64,000 nt of DNA from NCBI GenBank assembly GCA_017999435.1, contig JAGNLV010000003.1, positions 434,001 to 498,000 on the forward strand, in the 5' to 3' direction. The position numbers and the translations under genes were made by a program. This stretch comes from Candidatus Zixiibacteriota bacterium (GTDB lineage Bacteria > Zixibacteria > MSB-5A5 > GN15 > FEB-12). Positions 30,251 through 55,693 of the stretch are shown piece after piece (the stretch's first letter is position 1; each line of letters opens with the position of its first letter). The notes below the pieces were generated by a model, which was given only the letters and a program-made list of their open reading frames with translations, was not told the origin of the DNA and ran no database searches.

Positions 30251-32947
30251 ATGGACCCGTTTGGCGTCAAAGGCAAGCTCAAAGCCGGGGGGAACAGCTA
30301 CACCGTGTATCGCCTGGACAAGCTGGCCGGGCAGCGGGGAATCGACCGGGCGGCGATCGAGCGGATGCCCTACTCGATCAAGGTGCTCCTCGAAGCGGTG
30401 CTGCGCAACGCCGACGGCCGGGTGATTCGGGACGAGGATGTGGCGGCGATGGCGCGCTACGACGCCAGGAAAGCGGCCGAGCAGAGCCACGAGTTCCCCT
30501 TCAAACCGGCCCGCGTACTCCTTCAGGATTTCACCGGGGTGCCGGCGGTGGTCGACCTGGCGGCGCTGCGGTCGGCGATGAAACGGATGGGGGGGGACCC
30601 GAAGAAGATCAATCCGCTCGTGCCGGTTGATCTCGTGATCGACCATTCGGTCATGGTCGACCGGTACGGTTCGGACGACGCGCTGGCGGCCAACATGGAG
30701 ATGGAATTTCAGCGCAACGCCGAGCGGTACGAGTTCCTCCACTGGGGGCAGAAGGCCTTTGCGAATTTCCGGGTGGTGCCGCCGGCGACCGGGATCTGCC
30801 ACCAGGTGAATCTCGAGTACCTCGCCAAGTGCGTGCTGGTGCGCGACGGCGAGGCCTTCCCGGACAGCCTGGTCGGGACGGACAGCCACACGGTGATGAT
30901 CAACGGGCTGGGGGTGGTCGGTTGGGGCGTCGGGGGGATCGAGGCGGAGGCGGTCATGCTCGGGCAGCCGCTCTATATGCTGACGCCGGAGGTGATCGGG
31001 TTCAAGCTCACGGGGAAGCTCGCGGAGGGGACGACCGGGACGGACCTCGTGCTCACGGTGACGCAGATGCTCCGGCAGAAAGGGGTGGTGGGGAAGTTTG
31101 TCGAATTCTACGGCGAGGCGCTCGACACGCTACCGCTGCCGGCAAAGGCGATGGTGGCGAACATGGCCCCCGAATACGGCGCGACGATGGGGTTTTTCCC
31201 GGTCGACGAGCTCACGCTGGACTACCTGCGCATGACCGGGCGGACCGACGGCGAGGTCGACCTGGTGGAGTGCTACTGCAAGGAGCAGGGGCTGTTCCGC
31301 GCGAAGGGAGCGGCGGCCCCCGCGTTCACGGACACGCTCGAGCTCGATATCTCGCAGGTGGAACCCTCGCTGGCCGGTCCCAAGCGGCCGCAGGACCGGG
31401 TGGCGCTGTCGAAGATGAAAGACGAATTCCAGAGAGCGCTCGCGCGGCCGATCAAAGAGCGCGGGTTCGAGCTCAAACCGAGCGAAACCGAGAGGCAGGT
31501 CAAGATCAGCGACGGGTACCGGGCCGCGATCGGGCACGGCGCGGTGGTGATCGCCGCCATCACCAGCTGCACCAACACCTCCGATCCCTCGGTGCTCCTC
31601 GGGGCGGGGCTGCTGGCGAAGAAGGCGGCCGCCCGGGGGCTGACGAGCAAACCGTGGGTGAAAACCTCGCTCGCCCCGGGGTCGCGGGTGGTGATGGATT
31701 ACCTCGAGAAGGCGGGATTGATCGAGCCGCTGAAGAAGCTCGGGTTCCACAATGTCGGGTTCGGGTGCACGACCTGTATCGGCAACAGCGGGCCGCTGCC
31801 CGAAGCGGTGGTCAAAGCGATCGAGGAGGGGAACCTGGTGGTGTCGGCGGTGCTGTCGGGCAACCGGAATTTCGAGGGGCGGGTGAACCCGCACACGCGG
31901 GCCAACTACCTCGCCTCGCCCCCGCTGGTGGTGGCCTACGCGATCGCCGGAACGACCGCGATCGATCTGGCGACGGAGCCGATCGGGACCGATGAGGGCG
32001 GAAAGCCGGTGTACCTGCGGGACATCTGGCCCAGCCAGCGGGAGATCGCCGAGGCCATGGCGGGAGCGATCAGCCCGGCCATGTTCCGCGCCCGCTACGG
32101 GGCCGTGTTCACGGGCAACGAGCGGTGGAACCGGATCCAGTCGCCCGCGAGCGAGCTCTACCGGTGGGACGAGAAATCGACCTATATCCAGGAGCCGCCG
32201 TTCTTCGTCGACATGAAGCCGGAGCCGGGGGATGTCGAGCCGATCCGGGACGCGAGGGTGCTGGGGATATTCGGCGATTCGATCACCACCGACCACATCA
32301 GTCCGGCGGGGTCGATCAAGGCCGACAGCCCGGCGGGCCAATACCTCCTCTCACACGGCGTGACTTTTGCCGACTTCAATTCCTACGGCTCGCGGCGCGG
32401 CAATGACCGGGTCATGACGCGCGGCACCTTCGCCAACATCCGCATCCGCAACCTGCTCGCCCCCGGAACCGAGGGGGGCGTGACGATCTATCTCCCCGCC
32501 AACCAGCAGATGAGCATCTACGATGCGGCGATGAAGTACCAGGCGGACGGAACGCCGCTGCTGGTGATCGCCGGGAAGGACTACGGGATGGGGTCCTCGC
32601 GCGACTGGGCGGCCAAGGGGACGAGCCTGCTCGGGATCAGAGCGGTGCTCGCCGAGAGTTTCGAGCGGATCCACCGCTCCAACCTGGTCGGGATGGGCGT
32701 CCTCCCGCTCCAGTTCCTGCCGGGCGAAGCGCGCGAGAGGCTGGGGCTGACCGGCCACGAACTGTACACGATCGAGGGACTCTCGAACGACATGAAGCCG
32801 AAACAGCGGGTGACGGTGAAGGCGCTTTCGAAGAACGGCGAGAAACGGTTCGAGGCCGTCGCCCGGCTCGACACGCCGATCGATGTCGAGTACTACCGGC
32901 ACGGGGGGATTTTGCAGATGGTGCTGCGGCAGCTCGCCCGGGCGTAG
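30251..32947 (+). CDS. acnA: Aconitate hydratase A
   Basis: An 898-aa monomeric aconitase/IRP-type enzyme interconverting citrate and isocitrate in the TCA cycle. Domains 1-3 contain [37 protein letters not shown], the first cluster ligand in [15 protein letters not shown], and the Cys pair in [13 protein letters not shown]. The C-terminal swivel domain 4 has [16 protein letters not shown] and [15 protein letters not shown] (the catalytic SSR(D) loop). It is a fully intact enzyme, a useful contrast to the degenerate aconitase-superfamily pair at 51918 and 54068. AGGAGG precedes ATG 30251. Monocistronic. Confidence 0.98.
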
Positions 32948-51917: not shown

Positions 51918-52406
51918 CTACTCTTTGCCGAGTTCTTTGCGGACGGCGCTGACGAGGCCGCCCTGCTCGACGATCCGGGCGACGCGTTCGGCATACTTGC
52001 CGAACGGAAATTCCTGTTCGCCGCGGAGGACGGTTCCTTTGCGCAGGTTCACGGAGATGCGGTCGCCCTCGCTCAGCTGCCCGCGGAGGTCGGCGGTGAC
52101 GAGGGCGAGACCGGCGTTGACGGCGGGGCGGAAGAACTCGCGGGGGAAGCTGCGGGCGATGACGCAGCGGACGCCGGCGGCGAGCAGGGCGCTCGCGGCG
52201 AGCGCCGGTTCGGGTCCGCCGCCGAAGCTGTCGCCGGCAATGAGAATCGCTTCCGCCGGGAGCTTCTTGTCCGCCAGCGCGGGGCATTCCCGGAAGATGC
52301 TCTTGACGATGTCGGCCCGTTTGCCCCCCCGGCACGGGGCCGGACAGATGTGGTCGGTGGTGATGTTGTCGCCCGCGACGACGACGGTCCCGGTGATTTC
52401 TCTCAT
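51918..52406 (-). CDS. LeuD-like swivel-domain protein with degenerate substrate loop
   Basis: A 162-aa homologue of the small subunit of isopropylmalate/homoaconitate isomerases. The N-terminal VAGDNITTDHICPAP and later RCVIARSFPREFFRPAVNAG follow LeuD closely. But where enzymes have FGCGSSREH, whose Ser-Ser-Arg loop binds substrate carboxylates, residues 61-69 read FGGGPEPAL. The Arg, both Ser and the Cys are all gone, so normal catalysis is unlikely. It lies 11 nt downstream of a DNA methyltransferase gene on the same strand; the only LeuC-like gene nearby, also degenerate, is divergent at 54068. It may form a non-enzymatic heterodimer with that protein. GAGG precedes ATG 52406. Confidence 0.82.
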   Translation of the reverse strand: MREITGTVVVAGDNITTDHICPAPCRGGKRADIVKSIFRECPALADKKLPAEAILIAGDSFGGGPEPALAASALLAAGVRCVIARSFPREFFRPAVNAGLALVTADLRGQLSEGDRISVNLRKGTVLRGEQEFPFGKYAERVARIVEQGGLVSAVRKELGKE

Positions 52407-52417
52407 GGCAGCCTCGC

Positions 52418-53377
52418 TTACCGCGCGCACGCGCTCGCCGCGTGTCTTTTCAGTTGCAGTTCCCGCTCGAACGGGTGCCCGGCCTGCCACCCGGTGCGGC
52501 CCTCGGCCCGGTAGCGTTCGAGGCGGCGGATCGTGATCTCGGCGAAAATCGGATCGATGTCGAAAGTCACACAGGAGCGCCCGAGGCGCTCGCAGGCCAC
52601 CAGGGTGGTGCCGGCGTGGGAAAAGAAATCGGCGACCAGCTCGCCGGGGCGCGACGAGGCGAGAACGATGCGCTCGATCGCCGCCAGCGGCTTCTGGGCG
52701 TAGCAGCCGTTCACGTTCTCCTCCCGGCGGTAGAACACCTGCTGGATGTCGACCCAGACGTTGCCGGGCCGGATCGTCTCCCCTCTCCCCCGCTCGGTGT
52801 TCTCAGTGCGTTTTCCGCCGACGGTTTTGTAGTACCCCCGGAGCGTCTTGGGAATCCCGGTGTACTGGACGGAAAAGGGCGGCTCTCCCTTGACGTAGTA
52901 GAGCAGTTCCTGCCGCACCGCCATCCAGTTGCGCTGGGTGCCGTAGCCGCGCTGGTTGCGCATGGTGATGAGCGAGCGCGAGGCGAATCCGGTCGCCGCC
53001 ATCATGGCCATCACCTGCGGGAGCGGCTGGAAGTGCCGGTCCTGGTCGGCGCCCAGCCAGATGTAGAGGGCGGCGGCGTCGGCCAGGATCGCATCGGTGT
53101 TGTCGACCCAGGCACGGCACCAGTTCGCGTAGGCCTCGGGCGGCAGTTTCTGTCCCATGACGAGGTTGTACGGCGGGTCCTGCACCGCCAGCGTCGCGCG
53201 GCGCGCGCCGAAGAGGCGGCGCACAAAGGCGCGGTCGGCCGCATCGCCGCAGGCCACCGTATGCCGTCCCTCCGGGTCGCACCAGACCTCTCCCAGGCGC
53301 AAACGGCAGTACGGCAGCAGCGCCGGGCGCACCGGGCTGACTGCCGAATCGAGGCGGGCCAGCAGACGGTAATGCAT
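52418..53377 (-). CDS. Site-specific DNA methyltransferase (N6-adenine or N4-cytosine, beta-type order)
   Basis: 319 aa. The catalytic motif IV is DPPYN (67-71) in ATLAVQDPPYNLVMG. The SAM-binding motif I is near the C-terminus as ADFFSHAGTTLVACERLG (F252-SHAG). This IV-before-I order marks the beta class. The middle ~170 residues would hold target recognition (LITMRNQRGYGTQRNWMAVR, GNVWVDIQQVFYRREENVNG). No restriction endonuclease is adjacent, so it is an orphan or regulatory methyltransferase. It shares a transcript with the LeuD-like gene and diverges from the HIT gene over a 190-nt spacer. ATG 53377 was chosen as the first family-like Met. Confidence 0.88.
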   Translation of the reverse strand: MHYRLLARLDSAVSPVRPALLPYCRLRLGEVWCDPEGRHTVACGDAADRAFVRRLFGARRATLAVQDPPYNLVMGQKLPPEAYANWCRAWVDNTDAILADAAALYIWLGADQDRHFQPLPQVMAMMAATGFASRSLITMRNQRGYGTQRNWMAVRQELLYYVKGEPPFSVQYTGIPKTLRGYYKTVGGKRTENTERGRGETIRPGNVWVDIQQVFYRREENVNGCYAQKPLAAIERIVLASSRPGELVADFFSHAGTTLVACERLGRSCVTFDIDPIFAEITIRRLERYRAEGRTGWQAGHPFERELQLKRHAASACAR

Positions 53378-53530
53378 GCGGGGATGATGGGAGGGTCGGG
53401 TGGGAGCGGCAACTAAAACATCGCCCGCCGGCGCGGTCGATAACAGCGGGGGCGGAGCGCGGAGAAAGACGCCGCTAACCATCTAAACGACAGCAGCTTG
53501 TGAAAATGTTGATATTCCCCGGGGCGGGGC

Positions 53531-53559
53531 TTGGCAGTGTGGGTAATTTTGTTTATTCT
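53531..53559 (+). promoter_or_regulatory. Promoter of the HIT/HTH-LeuC-like pair, 8 nt from the ATG
   Basis: TTGGCA (53531-53536), 17-nt spacer, TATTCT (53554-53559). ATG 53568 follows after 8 nt with no Shine-Dalgarno site: a probable leaderless message. It lies in the 190-nt spacer between the two divergent gene pairs. Confidence 0.65.
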
Positions 53560-53567
53560 ACACCATC

Positions 53568-54068
53568 ATGGAAGACAATGCGATATGGGCCCCCTGGCGC
53601 GCCGGGTTCGTGCTCGGCAAGAAAGAGGACGGTTGCGTCTTCTGTAACCGCATCGCGCACGACCGCGACTCGGTCGAGAACCTCATCGTCTTCCGCGCCC
53701 GACTCAATGTCGTCATCCTCAACAAGTATCCCTACAATCCCGGCCATGCGCTGATCGTCCCGATCCGCCACCTGGGCGGGCTCGACGAGCTGACGGTCGA
53801 CGAGGCCAACGAGTTTTTCCAGTTGACGCGCGACGCGGTGCGCCTGATGGAGCGGGCGTACCAACCGCAGTCGTTCAATTTGGGAATGAATCTCGGGCGG
53901 GAATCGGGGGCGGGAATCCCAGGGCACGTTCACATGCACATTGTCCCGCGGTGGGTGGGGGACACGAATTTCATGCCGGTGATCGGCCGGACCAAAGTGC
54001 AGTCGGTGCCGCTCGACGCCGTGTACGAGCGGCTTCGGAACGAATTTGTCGAGGAGTTCGGAAGCTGA
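53568..54068 (+). CDS. HIT family nucleotide hydrolase/phosphorylase
   Basis: A 166-aa HIT-superfamily protein. The His triad is HVHMHIVPRW (H120, H122, H124); an N-terminal CVFC pair (23-26) is the zinc half-site common in the FHIT/Ap4A group, and NPGHALIVPIRHLGGLDEL follows. Such proteins cleave dinucleoside polyphosphates or nucleotide adducts. The C-terminal extension (GDTNFMPVIGRTKVQ) is typical of the bacterial Ap4A-phosphorylase-like subgroup. Its stop overlaps the start of the HTH-LeuC-like gene (TGATG), so the two are translationally coupled. Confidence 0.94.
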   Translation: MEDNAIWAPWRAGFVLGKKEDGCVFCNRIAHDRDSVENLIVFRARLNVVILNKYPYNPGHALIVPIRHLGGLDELTVDEANEFFQLTRDAVRLMERAYQPQSFNLGMNLGRESGAGIPGHVHMHIVPRWVGDTNFMPVIGRTKVQSVPLDAVYERLRNEFVEEFGS

Positions 54069-55693
54069 TGGCGCGGCGGCGCAAGATCCCGACCAAGGGG
54101 GAGCTTCTGCAGCTGCAGAAGCTGTACAAGACCGACGAGAAGATCGGCGAGCGTCTCGGCGGCGTGCCCGCCTACCTCGTGGCCTACTGGCGGCGGAAGA
54201 AGAATGTCGCCAAGCATTCGGTGCCGAAATTTTCAGAGGCGGAGGTCCGGAACCTGTGGGAGCGGTTCGGGGATGACGACCGGTGCGGGCTGGAGCTGGG
54301 GATATCGAAGGCGGCGTTCTACAACTGGCGGCGGCGGTACGGGATTCGGGAGAAGCCGCCGTTTCTGAAGCTCGAGCAGCTCGAACTCAACCTTCCCGGC
54401 CTCAAGCAACGCGGCCACGCGGTCAGTTTGCTCGGCAAGCAGTCGGCGGCGCAGAAGATCATCGCCATGGCGGCGGAGCGGGAGAAAGTGGAGGTCGGCG
54501 AACTGGTCGTGGTGCAGCCGGATGTGACGATCGCGCACCAGGACGCCGCGGCGGTGGTGCGCGCTTTCAAGGAGATCGGGACCGAATACGTGTGGAACCC
54601 GGCCCGGATTTCAGTCGCCCTGGCCCGGTGCAACGACAGCGACGGCTGCGTGTCGGCCGCCGACCACCGGCTCGTCCGCGAATTCGTCCGGCGCCAGGGG
54701 ATCCCGAAATTCTACGATGTTTACGAGGGCGGCTGCCACCAGCTGGTGGTCGAGGACGGTCTGGTGGCGCCGGGCCAGTTGGTACTCGGCAGCGACGTCT
54801 ACGCCACGAGTTACGGGGCGCTGTCGGCGTTCGCGGCGGCGATTTCGCCGGCCGAAATGGCGACCGTCTGGGCCACCGGGCGGATCTGGCTGCGCGTCCC
54901 CCCCACCATCCGTATCGACGTCACCGGCCGCCGCGCGCGCGGCGTCTACACCCGCGACGTCATCCTCTACCTGCTCAAGCGGCTCGGTCCGCAGCGGGCC
55001 GACTACGCGGCGATCGAGTACCAGGGACCGGCCGTCTCGCACATGAGCATCAGCGAGCGGGTCACGCTCTGCAACGCCTCCGCCGACCTGGGCGCAAAGG
55101 CGGCGATCTGCCCGTTCGAGGCCGTGACGCGACGATATCTCAACGCGCGCGGCGGCGGGCGCTACCAGGCGATGCTCTCCGACAAGGACGCCGAATATGT
55201 CGAAATGTTTCAGATCAACATCGACCAGCTCACGCCCCAGATCGCCGGGCCGAACAGCGCCGCCGAAATCCACGCCGCGCGGGAGCTCGACGGACTCTCG
55301 GTGCAGATGGTGGTGATCGGGGGCGGTACGAACGGCCGCTTCGACGATCTCCGCGTGGCCGCGGATATCCTCAAGGGCAAACAGGTGCACCAGGACTGCC
55401 GGGTGCTGGTGGTCCCGGCCTCCCGCTCGGTGTACCTGGAGGCGCTCAAGAAAGGATTGATCCGCGTGTTTGCCGAGGCGGGGGCGGCGGTCACGGATCC
55501 TTCGGCGGGGCTGAACGCCGCGCGGCTGCCGGAACAGGTTGCGCCGGGGGAACGATGCCTGGCCAGCACCAACACCTCGTTGTTCCCCCGGGCGGCCGAG
55601 CTCGGCGCGGAGCTGTACTTGTGCTCGCCGGCGACCGCGGCCGCGTCGGCCTTGAACGCCCGGATCACCGACCCAACGCCGTACGTGCGGTAG
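54068..55693 (+). CDS. LeuC/aconitase-family pseudoenzyme fused to two N-terminal helix-turn-helix units
   Basis: 541 aa. Residues 11-46 (KTDEKIGERLGGVPAYLVAY) and 57-93 (DDDRCGLELGISKAAFYNWR) are two helix-turn-helix units of transposase/homeodomain style, absent from known LeuC enzymes. From about 115 onward the sequence follows the isopropylmalate isomerase large subunit (KFYDVYEGGCHQLVVEDGLV, VLGSDVYATSYGALSAF, TNGRFDDLRVAADILKGKQV, GERCLASTNTSLFPR). All three [4Fe-4S] ligands are replaced: the SCTN Cys is G420, and the GCxxC pair is A480/N483. GADSHT has become GSDVYA. It cannot be a normal hydro-lyase; a DNA-binding, metabolite-responsive role is the best inference. Confidence 0.85.
   Translation: MARRRKIPTKGELLQLQKLYKTDEKIGERLGGVPAYLVAYWRRKKNVAKHSVPKFSEAEVRNLWERFGDDDRCGLELGISKAAFYNWRRRYGIREKPPFLKLEQLELNLPGLKQRGHAVSLLGKQSAAQKIIAMAAEREKVEVGELVVVQPDVTIAHQDAAAVVRAFKEIGTEYVWNPARISVALARCNDSDGCVSAADHRLVREFVRRQGIPKFYDVYEGGCHQLVVEDGLVAPGQLVLGSDVYATSYGALSAFAAAISPAEMATVWATGRIWLRVPPTIRIDVTGRRARGVYTRDVILYLLKRLGPQRADYAAIEYQGPAVSHMSISERVTLCNASADLGAKAAICPFEAVTRRYLNARGGGRYQAMLSDKDAEYVEMFQINIDQLTPQIAGPNSAAEIHAARELDGLSVQMVVIGGGTNGRFDDLRVAADILKGKQVHQDCRVLVVPASRSVYLEALKKGLIRVFAEAGAAVTDPSAGLNAARLPEQVAPGERCLASTNTSLFPRAAELGAELYLCSPATAAASALNARITDPTPYVR

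Follow-up and report, generated by a model that had tools for sequence, protein, structure and literature searches.

Fusion of a tandem helix-turn-helix to a LeuC-type aconitase body suggests an enzyme turned gene or chromosome regulator in Zixibacteria

Introduction

Large subunits of the LeuC/HacA type (PRK00402, TIGR01343, TIGR02086; structures 4kp1 and 4kp2) belong to the aconitase superfamily, in which the cluster is ligated by three cysteines and most active-site residues are common to members outside aconitase X (AcnX) (PMC8184944). AcnX (PDB 7cnq) is an example of this fold working with other clusters (PMC8184944). It has dehydratase activity and a non-canonical metal site, and the residues of that site are conserved.

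A role as RNA-binding regulators is well known for aconitases. IRP1, IRP2 and the bacterial trigger-enzyme aconitases combine the aconitase fold with a regulatory life, as we propose here for a protein of Zixibacteria, and IRP2 likewise regulates without being an aconitase. In the IRPs it is the aconitase body that binds RNA, and the IRP-type switch needs a reversible [4Fe-4S] cluster in a competent site. Among nucleic-acid-binding proteins, mariner/Mos1 transposases carry two tri-helical helix-turn-helix (HTH) units in a row and IS3 OrfA transposases carry an HTH of the HTH_Tnp_1 type, while Hda and YabA are clamp-bound regulators.

Here we analyzed a 64,000-nucleotide stretch of a Candidatus Zixiibacteriota genome (contig JAGNLV010000003.1, positions 434,001 to 498,000), hereafter the window, and compared one of its genes across 132 genomes of the phylum, which vary in completeness. 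The gene lies at 54068..55693 on the forward strand and encodes a protein of 541 aa (P0001); its reading frame, strand and coordinates had been given correctly in the original prediction. P0001 has the fold of the LeuC/HacA large subunits, with 38% identity over ~420 residues in a structure alignment, but it adds an N-terminal tandem HTH of ~110 aa and has lost the three cluster cysteines and the catalytic residues. Whereas the IRPs use the body for binding, the candidate nucleic-acid binder of P0001 is a separate fused domain and the enzyme residues are gone; an IRP-type switch would not be expected of a protein lacking the cysteines, although its intact relatives could have one. Unlike AcnX, the decayed HTH-LeuC proteins appear to have no conserved replacement site, judged by a search for body positions conserved in decayed members and not already in the intact enzyme, and no AcnX family match was listed for P0001 in profile searches. 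The second HTH of P0001 is similar in sequence to HTH_Tnp_1; however, P0001 lacks a transposase domain, its structure matches to transposases are non-significant, and it is encoded by a single-copy core gene rather than a mobile element. A flexible segment of P0001 contains a short Hda-like QLxLxL motif, known here from sequence, but the protein has neither the AAA+ nor the coiled-coil domain of Hda and YabA. A literature search, which covered few subscription journals, found no description of an HTH-LeuC fusion.

Results

Residues 122-541 of P0001 (54431..55690, forward strand) form LeuC/HacA-type aconitase domains 1-3, according to both profile and structure matches. The PRK00402/hacA/IPMI_arch models match residues 126-537 (E down to 4.9e-118), Pfam Aconitase matches the body at 3.7e-63, and 4kp1, the M. 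jannaschii IPM isomerase large subunit, matches at 8e-90. The AlphaFold2 model (mean pLDDT 88.7) aligns with 4kp1 at a target-normalised TM-score of 0.91, so that the sequence and the fold of a LeuC/HacA-type [4Fe-4S] hydro-lyase large subunit are both present. Since the scores of the body exceed every threshold by a wide margin and residues 1-111 are near-invariant over the phylum, the architecture is not a product of chance. In the alignment to 4kp1, however, all three cluster-ligating cysteines are absent, the first replaced by Gly420 (SCTN to GGTN; 55325..55327, forward strand) and the second and third (CxxC) by Ala480 and Asn483 (55505..55516, forward strand), and two catalytic motifs are lost, with GSDVYA standing for GADSHT and STNTSLFPRAA for TSNRNFRGRQG. 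The cysteine replacements and the GSDVYA change had been noted from the letters of the gene, and the alignment agrees. Because the cysteines ligate the cluster and the active-site residues are so widely shared (PMC8184944), P0001 is not expected to work as a standard enzyme of the superfamily; the body is predicted to be catalytically dead, which supports the earlier view of P0001 as a probable pseudoenzyme. The family model, whose 385-bit cut-off P0001 passes with 394 bits, nevertheless gives it the name 'aconitase/3-isopropylmalate dehydratase large subunit family protein', and annotation by that model would wrongly credit these organisms with the enzyme.

AlphaFold2 predicts two tri-helical units in the N-terminus with high confidence: HTH unit 1 at residues 9-46 (helices 10-20, 23-29 and 35-44; 54092..54205, forward strand) and HTH unit 2 at residues 56-93 (helices 57-67, 70-77 and 81-90; 54233..54346, forward strand). 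These predictions favor the original prediction of two HTH units and of a DNA-binding-type N-terminus. L37, Y40, W41, R42 and K44 are invariant in the first unit, on and beside its third helix, as are W64, G68, D70, G74, W87 and R88 in the second; each third, recognition-type helix thus bears a cluster of invariant residues (Y40 W41 R42 K44; W87 R88), and both are nearly invariant throughout and rich in basic residues. The second unit was matched by HTH_Tnp_1 in 40 and by HTH_23 in 39 of 52 family members, its score in P0001 itself falling below the gathering score. The first unit had no sequence-level family match, and its support comes from structure prediction and conservation. A profile of the N-terminus searched against the sequences of solved structures returned nothing significant, and the best solved-structure match, to the bipartite HTH DNA-binding region of Mos1 transposase, was likewise non-significant (E 0.07). 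From the predicted fold, the basic conserved third helices and a weak resemblance to HTH domains of the transposase, Fis and GcrA types, whose structure matches are non-significant, we infer that P0001 binds DNA, although HTH-like folds can instead bind RNA or protein. We also considered a mobile-element origin and rejected it, as the N-terminus had no match in phages or plasmids; one match to a viral contig was an ordinary IS3 OrfA HTH.

Profile searches matched residues 1-111 in 120 of the 132 phylum genomes and in 76 of the 78 near-complete ones, almost always once per genome, which points to a core DNA-binding protein of this uncultured phylum. Occurrence outside the phylum was probed weakly, by one peptide-pattern scan, and the records of the relatives are mostly Candidatus Zixiibacteriota. 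The gene is preceded by one for a HIT-family hydrolase (53568..54068, forward strand; catalytic motif HVHMHIV present), which shares one base with the start of HTH-LeuC. This order, on the same strand and with a median gap of 3 bases, was found in 115 of 116 assessable genomes, the sole exception being a masked (N-filled) contig, and most of the HIT proteins keep the HxHxH motif.

The relatives are not uniformly decayed. The fusions of families f6, f12, f13 and f14 are intact, with the three cysteines (CCC), DSHT, NRNF and all 15 active-site positions checked; three of them score 542-587 bits, widely above the PRK00402, hacA_fam and IPMI_arch cut-offs, and an intact HTH-LeuC gene is followed by LeuD with GSSRE in 8 of 8 assessable cases. 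In a further 12 genomes ("CCC-only") the cysteines are kept and the rest of the active site is lost, and in 91 genomes the cysteines are lost. The original prediction had linked loss of the cluster to gain of the HTH units, but the homologue alignment contradicts this: the intact families have the same N-terminus together with the cysteines and the active site, CCC-only members also occur, and fusion and cysteine loss are therefore separable. A tree of 90 sequences requires at least 5-7 changes to account for the missing cysteines, and because the active site is scrambled differently in each lineage the enzyme appears to have been lost repeatedly. Intact sequences group on short branches and decayed ones lie on longer branches. 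We take the intact state as probably ancestral, given these short branches and its closeness to ordinary LeuC; the tree is a quick one with a midpoint root, which is not rigorous, so the direction from intact to decayed is tentative. Among pairs with 60-70% identity in the N-terminus, body identity was 74% for intact and 27% for decayed members, and body divergence is great outside the intact families. Selection thus seems to have switched ends in the decayed members, with the N-terminus kept while the body diverged. A single phylum holds a series from the intact bifunctional enzyme through cysteines-only and cysteines-lost forms to a body that is barely recognisable, and because these stages coexist, the route from enzyme to DNA-binding protein can be tested with living intermediates.

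We then looked at the small subunit. The window encodes a degenerate LeuD-like protein at 51918..52406 on the reverse strand (LEUD_arch 98 bits against a cut-off of 108.95, Aconitase_C 24.4 bits, and support from relatives), in which GDSFGGGPEPALAAS replaces GxNFGCGSSREQAAxS, so that the catalytic Ser and Arg are lost. This nearby gene lacks GSSRE, and no other two-subunit LeuD, nor an ordinary LeuC/LeuD pair, was found in the window's genome; a functional LeuD partner is thus missing there. The decayed LeuD-like gene of the window, like those of two f1 relatives, is encoded on the opposite strand and adjoins a DNA methyltransferase gene, which in the window is of the N6_N4 type and sits just upstream of it (52418..53482, reverse strand; its true start may be near 53377). 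A decayed LeuD follows a decayed HTH-LeuC in f15, f16 and part of f4. In family f10 (G094 and G095), an intact LeuD with GSSRE comes directly after a dead HTH-LeuC (L155:4412-4936 and L156:3109-3642), and the relative G096 has an intact LeuC at another locus, fitting a split enzyme whose catalysis may have been transferred to a second LeuC. The window's genome has two one-chain aconitases, one a complete AcnA-type enzyme in the window itself (926-codon frame, about 30476-32719, forward strand) and the other on contig C2. A link to the leucine pathway was considered and set aside. LeuB-type matches of ~280 bits mark some genomes but not the host, whose match of 214 bits is probably isocitrate dehydrogenase. 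With the LeuA model, none of the 132 genomes matched at the strict threshold applied, which makes that result uninformative.

Discussion

We consider it most probable (roughly 0.68) that P0001 descends from a bifunctional enzyme and is today retained for DNA binding, with an inert aconitase body as its scaffold. A tandem HTH would have been fused before the large subunit of a two-subunit aconitase-superfamily isomerase, in an ancestral operon of HIT, HTH-LeuC and LeuD, and the enzyme form would survive in f6, f12, f13 and f14. Catalysis may have become dispensable in the window's and several other lineages, which had another LeuC or aconitase or lacked the pathway; residues of the Fe-S and substrate sites would then have drifted to unrelated letters and LeuD would have decayed, been lost or moved, with strong selection retaining the two HTH units and a short disordered-linker motif. 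The tandem HTH would bind a conserved DNA sequence, the aconitase fold would now serve only as a scaffold giving shape, solubility or multimer contacts, and the linker motif would dock a partner protein. HTH-LeuC as a whole suggests an enzyme turned gene or chromosome regulator, most lineages, including the window's, having lost the catalytic residues with the N-terminus almost unchanged, and transcriptional control by P0001 is a plausible candidate role. A pure DNA-regulator model leaves the invariant HIT partner without an explanation.

The linker allows a more specific possibility. Its conserved motif KPPFLKLEQLELNLPG (residues 96-111; 54353..54400, forward strand) includes the hexapeptide QLELNL (residues 104-109; 54377..54394, forward strand), which by the criterion of sequence only meets the QLxLxL/QLxLF clamp motif in an accessible segment; QLxLxL is the hexameric beta-clamp-binding consensus (PMC4564189). 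The motif may therefore bind the beta sliding clamp, with P0001 tethered to the replisome or its trail and acting through its HTH units, a possibility that we hold tentatively and think unlikely on balance. Across all 112 genomes compared, the hexapeptide follows the pattern Q[LMI]x[LFI]x[FLI]: Q104 is invariant, residues 105, 107 and 109 are hydrophobic, and 106 and 108 vary freely; family variants such as QIQLPL, QLQLPI and QLDLGI share the layout, residues 105-118 are predicted to be a disordered linker (pLDDT below 50), and the gene is single-copy and near-universal. However, the likeness is confined to six residues, Phe at motif position 4 is unusual, the window has no DnaA boxes and the few upstream boxes elsewhere come mostly from one genus. 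Conservation also extends upstream (KPxxLKLE; P97 and L100 are invariant, as is Q104) beyond what a clamp motif needs, and the linker partner could thus be another protein, for example the HIT protein. The fuller version, in which a phylum-wide core tandem-HTH protein would tie the replication clamp to a conserved chromosomal site through its linker, as a fusion with an IPM-isomerase-like enzyme, active to this day in some families and repeatedly gutted in others, co-transcribed with an Ap4A-phosphorylase-type HIT hydrolase, seems to us a little more doubtful still.

The original prediction had proposed a pocket for an isopropylmalate-like or tricarboxylate ligand. On this view P0001 would be a metabolite-sensing transcription factor whose HTH units are switched by binding of isopropylmalate, citrate or a related acid to the dead LeuC body; in the window's order the fold and residues G418, R424 and S452 have mostly been retained, and the intact relatives presumably bind such substrates. 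We nonetheless regard this as improbable. Substrate and cluster residues are replaced by unrelated letters in each decayed lineage (position 480 alone holds S, Y, L, C, F, A, M, P, N, G, V or I), no body position was found that is conserved in the decayed set and not already in the intact enzyme, and in 71 of the 91 genomes that have lost the cysteines no LeuD, the subunit completing the pocket, was seen close to the gene. The absence of a conserved substitute pocket argues against an isopropylmalate-type sensor, and the pattern of decay appears to be that of a fold preserved as a scaffold rather than of a ligand pocket put to new use.

The same N-terminus could act on RNA, making P0001 a regulator of the IRP/AcnB type. 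There is precedent among the aconitases, and basic residues abound in both third helices, but the region is predicted as a tandem tri-helical HTH whose nearest domains are of DNA-binding transposase and Fis/GcrA type, and we rate this reading as rather improbable. Even harder to reconcile with the data is continued enzyme activity, by other chemistry or at another metal site, on the model of AcnX: the fold is intact in a high-confidence prediction, yet an enzyme would conserve its own pocket, and the decayed members share no pocket residue and have strongly diverged bodies. A decaying pseudogene or assembly artefact can be practically dismissed, as the stop codon (TAA) inside the gene in one genome is set against an open frame and a near-invariant N-terminus in over 110 genomes.

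Returning to the reading of P0001 as a DNA-binding protein on an inert scaffold, we ran k-mer and ZOOPS-EM motif searches on the DNA preceding the HIT gene and found no shared operator, only a T-rich/promoter-like A/T-rich signal; autoregulation is therefore unsupported. An AT-rich stretch resembling a -10 element (for example TTGGCA ... TATTCT) reaches to within a few bases of the HIT start codon in the window (53520-53570) and in several relatives, and its closeness to that start suggests leaderless transcription of the HIT and HTH-LeuC operon. Exact DnaA boxes were present upstream of the operon in 7 genomes against 0.4 expected, but their enrichment was rejected as a general feature, since most come from one genus and none is in the window. 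Perfect boxes (TTATCCACA) occur upstream of HIT in G003, G031 and their relatives (genus g4).

In G031 (L012/L046) a single TAA breaks the HTH-LeuC frame after about 275 codons. An N6_N4-type DNA methyltransferase gene lies near HIT and HTH-LeuC in many f1 loci (L002-L008, L011-L014, L018, L021 and others), either divergently upstream or downstream, and is not a universal neighbor. The HTH-LeuC proteins of family f3 (L019, L020, L072, L073) are longer, at 564-598 aa, with an insertion that falls near P0001 residues 394-399.
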